DNA of 37,783 nucleotides from a virus. The stretch spans positions 1-37,783 of the IMG/VR virus record IMGVR_UViG_3300046012_000298. One strand, written 5' to 3'. Below are positions 23,220 through 25,661 of the stretch, piece after piece. The position numbers and the translations under genes are program-made. The first letter of the stretch is position 1. Every line of letters begins with the position of its first letter. The notes under the pieces are model-generated. The model saw nothing but the letters and a program-made list of their open reading frames with translations. It searched no databases and had not been told where the DNA came from.

Positions 23220-23858
23220 TCAAGTTGCCTGAAGGACAAGCCAGCCAACCCCGCAGCCGATGTTGATGCGCTTGTCGATGATGCGGAGGGACTTAAACGT
23301 CGTCCCGAGCGCGGTCTGATAATCCTGCAACGATGGCTTGGCCGTTCCAAATCGGGAGAGCATAAAATCGCGCGTCGGCTCGGATAGCGCCAACGGGAGC
23401 CTTGGGTTTCGCGGATTAAACGCCGCGCCGTGATCGTAAATGCACTCCGCGATAATGAAGCCTCCGGGCGGAAGGCAGTTTTTCGCAGCGGGCAGGAAGT
23501 CGGAATACAGTGCATCGTCAAGGTTGATATCGATAACGATGAGGTCGAAAGACAACGCCGTTTTGCGCATGAAGTCCAAGCCATCCGCGCAAACCACCTT
23601 AACTTGCGGGTAGCGGGCTTCCAGCGCGTGGCTCAACACAGGATCATTCTCTACGGCGGTAATGTCGTCATGAAAGCGGCAAAGATATTTTGTCGTCGTC
23701 TCGCCGCAAAATCCGCCAGCCCCAATGTCAAGAACTCGCGCTCCGGCCGGCAACTGTAGCTCGGTGAGAGCCGTCAGAAAGCCGGAGTGATCGCGCCGAA
23801 CCCGGTGCAGATACCACTCTGAAATATGAGAAGGCCGCAGCTTTCTAACGAAGTTCAT
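23220..23858 (-). CDS. Class I SAM-dependent methyltransferase (moron)
   Basis: A 212-residue Rossmann-fold methyltransferase on the opposite strand to the late operon. ATG 23858 has GAGGAAG five bases upstream; the same frame stays open far upstream but only as antisense of the endolysin. Motif I is RVLDIGAGGFCGE (near 55-70), motif II AVENDP, motif III CADGLDF, motif IV FDLIVIDINLDDALYSD, motif V LPPGGFIIAECIYD. The spacing resembles spermidine synthase-like and small-molecule/protein methyltransferases more than DNA methylases: no DPPY/NPPY motif is present. The substrate is unknown; virion or host-surface modification is speculation. Its stop abuts the fibre stop with no gap. Confidence 0.82.
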   Translation of the reverse strand: MNFVRKLRPSHISEWYLHRVRRDHSGFLTALTELQLPAGARVLDIGAGGFCGETTTKYLCRFHDDITAVENDPVLSHALEARYPQVKVVCADGLDFMRKTALSFDLIVIDINLDDALYSDFLPAAKNCLPPGGFIIAECIYDHGAAFNPRNPRLPLALSEPTRDFMLSRFGTAKPSLQDYQTALGTTFKSLRIIDKRINIGCGVGWLVLQAT

Positions 23859-23924
23859 AACTTCCTCTACCACACCCAAAAGGACCAATCCAATGCCCAA
23901 CCTCTCCCAGGGGAATGCGGATCT

Positions 23925-24473
23925 ATGAGTGCATCCAGCTATCAAACGGCCATTTTGCATGTCCTCGCCAGCGAGGGCGGGTATGTGAACCATCCGGCCG
24001 ATCCGGGTGGCCCGACCAATTGGGGGATCACGCTGGCCGACGCCCGTCATTACTGGAAGACCAACGCCACAGCCTCTGACGTAAGGGTCATGTCGCTTGA
24101 TGTGGCAAAGCAGATTTACCGCGCGCACTACTGGAATTCCATGTCGTGCGACGGGCTTCCGGCAGGCGTGGATTATTGCGTGTTCGACTACGGGGTGAAT
24201 TCGGGCGTCGGGCGCTCGGCACGGGTGCTGCAAAAGCTGGTCAAGGTGCCACAGGACGGCGTGATCGGTCCGCAGACCTTGGCGGCGGCCGGGGAGATTG
24301 ACCCGGCGAAGCTCGTCAATTCGATCTGCGCTGAACGTCTCGCGTTCCTGAAGGCTCTCCCGACCTGGCGCACCTTCGGCAAGGGCTGGTCGGCCCGCGT
24401 TGCTGAGGTCCGTGCAACATCTCTTCGTCTCGCTGCGGCTGCTCCGCACGGGAAGGGTAAAGCCGCCGCCTGA
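23925..24473 (+). CDS. Endolysin, GH108 N-acetylmuramidase
   Basis: A 182-residue muramidase cleaving the glycan backbone. The GH108 signature is ILHVLASEGGYVNHPADPGG followed by PTNWGIT, where E17 in EGGY is the catalytic acid. The DYCVFDYGVNSGVG segment continues the domain. The C-terminal third is a PG_binding_3-like domain (VPQDGVIGPQTLAAA). There is no signal peptide, so release depends on the holin genes downstream. The ATG at 23925 follows AGGGGA by ten bases; an earlier in-frame start lies within the divergent methyltransferase promoter area and is unlikely. Confidence 0.92.
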   Translation: MSASSYQTAILHVLASEGGYVNHPADPGGPTNWGITLADARHYWKTNATASDVRVMSLDVAKQIYRAHYWNSMSCDGLPAGVDYCVFDYGVNSGVGRSARVLQKLVKVPQDGVIGPQTLAAAGEIDPAKLVNSICAERLAFLKALPTWRTFGKGWSARVAEVRATSLRLAAAAPHGKGKAAA

Positions 24474-24506
24474 CGGTCTCAGGCATTTCAAAACAGGAGA
24501 GCCAAA

Positions 24507-24734
24507 ATGGCTTCTGTCGATAGCACGTCTGACGCTCGCACCGTGAACAATACGATGCGCCACGCTTATCGCGTCCTCTCGGATGCCGAGAAAGCGAACA
24601 TGTCCGCGATCAAGGACGAAGGTCTGAAATTCCACGACCTGATTGCCGGTATGGGCAACAGCCGGGAAATCTCGCTCGCCAAGACCAAGATCGAAGAGGC
24701 GGTCATGTGGGCCGTCAAGCACATCACGGCCTGA
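24507..24734 (+). CDS. Acb2/Tad1 hairpin-domain protein, candidate anti-CBASS
   Basis: A 75-residue helical hairpin protein. NTMRHAYRVLSDAEKANMSAIKDEGLKF and SREISLAKTKIEEAVMWAVKHIT match the pattern I associate with the Acb2/Tad1 hairpin family, whose characterised members sequester cyclic oligonucleotides to block CBASS or Thoeris. As I recall, phage PaMx33 Acb2 uses Y11 and K26 for ligand contact; here Y21 and K36 have the same spacing of 15. A good AGGAGAG ribosome site precedes ATG 24507. It lies between endolysin and holin genes, a common insertion point for small accessory genes. Many members of this family have no tested activity. Confidence 0.75.
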   Translation: MASVDSTSDARTVNNTMRHAYRVLSDAEKANMSAIKDEGLKFHDLIAGMGNSREISLAKTKIEEAVMWAVKHITA

Positions 24735-24739
24735 CCATC

Positions 24740-24934
24740 ATGGCATACCTCACGGCGAACTGGTTTGTTGTCTATTTCTTCGCCGCTGTCTGGCTCTTCG
24801 GCTGGGTCGCGTCGATACGCGAAACCAACATTGGTCAGGAGCCGTGGGGCTTCTTCAAAATACGCGGCATCATTTTGCTGCTTTTCGTCTGGCCCTACAT
24901 CGCCTTCTGCATGTTCAGCCAAGGCGACCGCTAA
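24740..24934 (+). CDS. Small membrane protein with two helices
   Basis: A 64-residue protein with transmembrane segments at about 7-24 (FVVYFFAAVWLFGWVA) and 44-60 (GIILLLFVWPYIAFCMF), joined by a charged loop. No clear ribosome site precedes ATG 24740, but it begins five bases after the previous stop, so coupling is plausible. It lies just upstream of the holin and may be a holin partner, antiholin or membrane-acting accessory; I do not recognise the family. Confidence 0.65.
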   Translation: MAYLTANWFVVYFFAAVWLFGWVASIRETNIGQEPWGFFKIRGIILLLFVWPYIAFCMFSQGDR

Positions 24935-24979: not shown

Positions 24980-25222
24980 ATGAACCAGGATACCATCTGG
25001 CAAGTCATTCGCTATGCGCTGATCGCGCTCGGCGGATATTTCACCAACAAGGGCATCGTCAGTTCGGATCAGTGGACCACGATCATCGGCGCACTCGGAA
25101 CGGTCTTTCCGATCATCTGGGGCCTGTACGTCAAGTTCGGCACCAAGGCCACGACCGTTGAGGCTGCGGCCAAGCCATCTGTCCCGACCGTCAGCGGCGC
25201 TACCGGCATCGTCACAAAGTAA
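24980..25222 (+). CDS. Holin, Pam3-gp28-like
   Basis: An 80-residue two-helix protein beginning MNQDTIWQVIRYALIALGGYFTNKGI, with a second helix TIIGALGTVFPIIWGLYVKFGTK. This pattern (WQVIRY, GGY, IIWG.YVK) matches the putative phage holin family named for Pam3 gp28, which forms inner membrane lesions that let the endolysin out. The C-terminal 25 residues are Ala/Val/Lys-rich and cytoplasmic-like. AGGA lies about six bases before ATG 24980. The neighbouring muramidase supports the role. Confidence 0.8.
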   Translation: MNQDTIWQVIRYALIALGGYFTNKGIVSSDQWTTIIGALGTVFPIIWGLYVKFGTKATTVEAAAKPSVPTVSGATGIVTK

Positions 25223-25247: not shown

Positions 25248-25661
25248 ATGCGAAAGCTCTTTGCTATCGCGGCCCTCGCGTGCGCTGTTGCGCTCGGCGG
25301 CTGCTCTACCCAATTCGGTCAGAAGCTTGAAGGCGCCTATAGCGCAATCACTGGCGCGACCGTCACCGCTCAGTCCGTCATCGTCGCCTCGAACATCTTC
25401 GACGGCCTTGAGCGCACCGCAACCAACTATCTCACGCTGAAGAAATGCAATGGCTCGACTCCGGTCTGCCGCGATCCCGGCGCGACCAAGATCATCGTGC
25501 CTGCCGTCCGGTCGGGGCGCGTCGCACGAAACAACCTTCAGCAGTTCTTCAAGGACCATCCCGGCCAGCTTGGCCCGTCAGGTCTTTATGACGCCCTGCA
25601 ATCGTCCATCAGCACGCTTCAGCAGGTATTCACACAGTACAGCATCGGAGCCGGTCAATGA
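25248..25661 (+). CDS. Phage lipoprotein
   Basis: A 137-residue lipoprotein. ATG 25248 has AAGGACTACC upstream, and the signal MRKLFAIAALACAVALGGC has a lipobox (LGGC) with Cys19 lipidated. The mature protein is mostly helical (VIVASNIFDGLERTATNYLTL, a CNGSTPVC pair that may form a disulfide, and a Gln-rich C-terminal helix). A position beside holin and lysins is compatible with an outer-membrane spanin or lysis helper, but Pro-rich spanin features are absent. Its stop overlaps the next start (ATGA). Confidence 0.75.
   Translation: MRKLFAIAALACAVALGGCSTQFGQKLEGAYSAITGATVTAQSVIVASNIFDGLERTATNYLTLKKCNGSTPVCRDPGATKIIVPAVRSGRVARNNLQQFFKDHPGQLGPSGLYDALQSSISTLQQVFTQYSIGAGQ

Follow-up and report, generated by a model that had tools for sequence, protein, structure and literature searches.

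The question raised by this locus is what the small gene at positions 24507 to 24734 does for the phage that carries it. The window, which is the whole 37,783-nucleotide stretch of virus DNA analysed here (IMG/VR record IMGVR_UViG_3300046012_000298), is a record of a temperate tailed phage with TerL, portal, head protease, major head protein, tail fibre, and integrase. Members of the Acb2/Tad1 family that have been studied soak up the nucleotide alarm signals that bacteria use against phages, and a first-pass annotation, made from the letters of the window, had placed the gene product in this group. Judged from sequence comparison and a predicted model, the gene product is probably a compact sponge of the Acb2 type that takes up CBASS cyclic oligonucleotides.

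The open reading frame, on the + strand, starts with ATG at 24507 and closes with a TGA that ends at 24734, just as it had been delimited before, and its 75-residue product is MASVDSTSDARTVNNTMRHAYRVLSDAEKANMSAIKDEGLKFHDLIAGMGNSREISLAKTKIEEAVMWAVKHITA. A ribosome-binding site, AGGAG (24495 to 24499, + strand), lies 7 nt 5' of the ATG. Since dN/dS is at most 0.17 against 15 relatives, with two of these comparisons saturated at synonymous sites, the substitution pattern marks the frame as a true protein-coding gene under strong purifying selection; the closest relative (L001) differs by 24 synonymous and 2 non-synonymous changes. The 5' neighbour on the same strand is an endolysin with GH108 and PG_binding_3 domains (23826 to 24473; PF05838, 6.2e-29; phrog_315 endolysin), and on the 3' side lies a holin of the Pam3 gp28 family (24980 to 25222, + strand; PF23987, 4.1e-16). 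The placement between endolysin and holin given by the first-pass annotation is therefore true, but one small open reading frame of 64 codons (24740 to 24934, + strand) also intervenes. Its hydrophobic, membrane-protein-like product and a lipoprotein-like protein encoded at 25248 to 25661 both belong to the lysis cassette; neither had a match in Pfam or PHROG, and they are possible spanin or holin partners.

The family assignment is well supported. The single Pfam-A match of the protein is PF24729 (Acb2_Tad1_hairpin), with E=1.5e-19 and 70.4 bits over residues 20–74 against a cut-off of 27 bits, and the proposed hairpin type is thereby upheld by a profile search. The positive control, T4 Vs.4 (Acb2, structure 7UQ2), scores equally at 71.4 bits. 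PF24729 gave one match in each of the 50 viral records tested and none in 14 control genomes. A profile built from 60 relatives ranked T4 Vs.4 (E=0.0021) and 'Acb2 homolog 43' (9PTQ, 0.0047) highest among PDB sequences, followed by PaP2/PaMx33 Acb2 (0.014) and Tad1 (0.048), with all other PDB entries below. Single-sequence phmmer reached T4 Vs.4 and Tad1 at E of about 1 only, the NCBIfam search returned no match, and the PHROGs search returned only families without a function. The family is already known, and Pfam recognises the protein as part of it.

An AF2 model from a 57-sequence alignment (pLDDT 82.7, pTM 0.62) is a helical hairpin with both helices at high confidence. Helix 1 comprises residues 26–47 (24582 to 24647, + strand) and helix 2 comprises residues 53–74 (24663 to 24728, + strand; REISLAKTKIEEAVMWAVKHIT), the latter resembling the stretch SSRENACALTHVEEALMW of CbTad1, while residues 1–18 are of low confidence. 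The single-sequence model was poor (one very long helix, pTM 0.34), and the alignment-based model was used instead. The 8 best Foldseek matches in the PDB are all Acb2 chains (probability 0.98–1.00, TMq about 0.61–0.63), with T4 Acb2 as the top fold match, although the shortness of the protein leaves the E-values above 0.1. Among the top viral matches, the majority are named 'Acb2/Tad1 hairpin domain-containing'. At the level of the monomer, the predicted fold thus agrees with the Acb2 structures, as had been anticipated.

Tyr21, Lys36, and Thr60 correspond to functional positions of T4 and PaMx33 Acb2. Tyr21 (24567 to 24569, + strand) aligns with the cyclic dinucleotide contacts PaMx33 Tyr11 and T4 Tyr8, and Lys36 (24612 to 24614, + strand) aligns with PaMx33 Lys26 and T4 Lys23. 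The residue patterns quoted earlier and the positions of Tyr21 and Lys36 are all found in the protein; the stated equality of spacing with PaMx33 Y11 and K26 is borne out by a gap-free alignment with PaMx33/PaP2 Acb2, and the register also matches T4 Y8 and K23. Lys36 is invariant in 60 of 60 relatives, and neither residue varies among 44 sequences dereplicated at 85%. K36, F42, T60, and M67 are identical throughout an alignment that includes PaMx33 Acb2 and T4 Vs.4, and Tyr21 is common to all aligned viral relatives but one. Arg53 (24663 to 24665, + strand) corresponds to PaMx33 Arg67, presumably a trinucleotide-pocket residue, and to the arginine of the Tad1 SRE motif, whereas T4 has no arginine there. 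Thr60 (24684 to 24686, + strand) aligns with T4 Thr68. In T4 Acb2, the Y8A change abolishes dinucleotide binding and the C-terminal aromatic F82 stacks on the ligand (PMC12657218), and a natural T68M change reduces binding affinity (PMC12657230). The F82 position is Thr74 in the present protein, whose chain ends at residue 75, so this contact is absent, which tells against the sponge reading; it is a T4 contact and not a demonstrated family-wide feature.

Because of the family membership and the conserved pocket residues, sequestration of CBASS cyclic oligonucleotides is the likely function predicted from the sequence. The hairpins would assemble as a hexamer, which would bind cyclic dinucleotides and probably trinucleotides made by the host CBASS (CD-NTase) without cutting them. 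Capture of the messenger would prevent effector-driven cell death until the phage has matured, and the placement in the lysis cassette suggests that expression may be late. The exceptional relative in the Tyr21 alignment (L003:6001-6228) has Cys in place of this ligand-contact residue despite 96% identity; it is the only such relative seen, and the substitution is possibly a loss-of-binding variant.

When compared to T4 Vs.4/Acb2, the protein shares the Pfam domain, the conserved Tyr8, Lys23, and Thr68, and the AKTK..EA.MWA helix. In contrast, T4 has an inserted inter-helix loop and an FQPEEKY tail with the stacking Phe82, and it lacks both the arginine at the Arg53 position and the SD.RTVNN.MRH segment. 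PaMx33/PaP2 Acb2 (PDB 8H2J, 8H2X) has YR.LS..E...M..IK..G..F without a gap and with the same Y11/K26 spacing, as well as Arg67 and Thr in helix 2, whereas it has about 24 more loop residues, is about 30% identical, and is without the conserved N-terminal motif. 'Acb2 homolog 43' is a 76-residue short-loop hairpin with REKS..KTK.EEA; however, it does not contain the MW motif, and the identity is too low for ligand inference. The hypothetical proteins of Sinorhizobium phage Aussie, phage SI2, and ctCJ8213 are about 60–62% identical over nearly the full length, N-terminal motif included, but they occupy other genomic positions.

This N-terminal segment covers residues 9–20 (24531 to 24566, + strand; D.RTVNN.MRH.) and lies outside the Pfam domain, in a part of the AF2 model with low confidence. 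D9, R11, N14, N15, R18, and H19 are invariant in the 44 dereplicated sequences, and together with the preceding serine the motif SD.RTVNN.MRH is near-invariant. The inter-helix loop is about 15–25 residues shorter than in T4 and PaMx33 Acb2, and the aromatic C-terminal tail is missing. Shortness alone is not new, because the short-loop 9PTQ protein already has a structure. A tentative suggestion, rather doubtful at present, is that the Alphaproteobacteria-phage proteins form a distinct Acb2 subfamily in which SD.RTVNN.MRH replaces the loop and the C-terminal tail in the pocket and confers a different or broader nucleotide specificity. The segment is the one feature of the protein that merits a dedicated experiment. 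One relative (L109:8001-8288) has about 20 extra inter-helix loop residues at the site of the T4 and PaMx33 Acb2 insertions.

The hairpin domain is common to the present protein and Tad1 (PDB 7UAV, 8KBF), and helix 2 is closer to CbTad1 than to PaMx33 (SRE...T.VEEA.MW in Tad1), which would fit an anti-Thoeris sponge that mainly binds gcADPR. However, the gcADPR pocket of Tad1 requires an N-terminal beta domain (PMC12043709), and only about 20 residues with no predicted strand precede the hairpin here, while Foldseek covers only about 41–42 Tad1 residues. A Tad1-like role is therefore improbable; Thoeris specificity was rejected for lack of this domain, and the blocking of Thoeris signalling, which the first-pass annotation had offered as an alternative, is unsupported. 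Many different nucleotides are ligands of hairpin sponges (PMC12043709, PMC12657218), and the subfamily lacks the T4 aromatic while having its own near-invariant N-terminal motif. The ligand could accordingly be a non-CBASS nucleotide, such as those of Panoptes or the messengers of type III CRISPR, or a host regulatory cyclic dinucleotide, but the conserved Tyr, Lys, and Thr positions and the neighbouring Acb1 of some relatives indicate the usual CBASS messengers and make another ligand similarly improbable.

A protein of the lysis cassette, acting in lysis timing or like an antiholin and merely sharing the hairpin fold, is the least probable of these readings. It would explain the position between endolysin and holin, the upstream lysis genes in several relatives, the divergent relative located 3' of an endolysin in Pseudomonas phage 5400, and the fusion of two relatives to a hydrophobic C-terminal domain. 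On the other hand, relatives with 60–62% identity sit in head-tail, post-tail, and recombination modules, so a lysis context is not needed; the protein has no hydrophobic span, and in both profile and fold it matches sponges whose function is known. The lysis role is unlikely because the genomic context of the relatives varies, and it was rejected since the position with lysis genes is not conserved among them.

Support for the CBASS-sponge reading also comes from Acb1, another anti-CBASS protein, which is a nuclease. A gene for a portal protein with a C-terminal Acb1 nuclease domain (PF06381 and PF23474) is present upstream of the hairpin gene in 6 distinct loci (L028/L093, L032/L094, L037/L096, L045, L092, and L109), immediately or nearly so in 5 and at about 2 kb in 1. 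The fusion genes are located at L028:2255-4051, L032:3984-5810, L037:4176-6011, L045:4049-5914, L092:5980-7884, and L109:6082-7956, and two anti-CBASS-type proteins are thus encoded together in a head module. In each of the 5 lysogen genomes with any Acb1, no more than about 2.5 kb separates it from the hairpin gene. This neighbourhood is supportive of an anti-CBASS role, but not conclusive, because Acb1 rides on the portal and the association may reflect insertion into the head module and not a shared function. The window itself had no match when searched for Acb1. SMODS CD-NTase genes above cut-off were found in 9 of 24 lysogen genomes versus 11 of 150 genomes sampled from one order (p=2.6e-4), and within that order in 4 of 14 lysogens versus 11 of 150 (p=0.027); taxonomy and genome size confound this excess. 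At 75 residues, the protein is a very small member of the family; it has an additional conserved segment, and its gene is repeatedly linked to Acb1 among the relatives.

Viral contigs yielded 226 relatives, and genomes a further 34. A rhizobial-type host is plausible for the window phage because the genome relatives are nearly all from Alphaproteobacteria, including Mesorhizobium, Neorhizobium, Aureimonas, Methylobacterium, and Microvirga; in one order, 16 of 297 genomes carry the hairpin family. With this protein, the range of likely Acb2-type sponges comes to include temperate phages that infect rhizobia-like Alphaproteobacteria, a group in which the closest relatives in phage collections bear only the label 'hypothetical protein'. 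In a phage DNA similarity search, the head genes of the window had no relatives. Few matches were obtained by tblastn between the lysis genes of the window and the related loci, and synteny was therefore judged by Pfam on the neighbours of the relatives. The relatives have variable neighbours and occupy the head-tail region in Aussie, the post-tail region in SI2, and a recombination region in ctCJ8213, as is typical of a mobile accessory gene.

Several relatives merit separate mention. In L011:6001-6729 and L018:6001-6693 (242 and 230 residues), no stop codon separates the hairpin from an in-frame hydrophobic stretch that resembles a membrane protein, and from their sequences these may be sponge-membrane protein fusions. 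The Pseudomonas phage 5400 gene (L085, 2974-3204), directly 3' of the endolysin, encodes a divergent PaMx33-like hairpin protein. The matching region is labelled 'Rz-like spanin' in phage U2 (H43) and 'phosphomannomutase' in some Paenibacillus phages, and both labels on hairpin genes are apparently misannotations. Phage SI2 (HQ332136) is named Dunaliella viridis virus SI2 and labelled as an alga virus, and it is of the class Caudoviricetes and carries an Alphaproteobacteria-phage gene; the alga host label is probably wrong.
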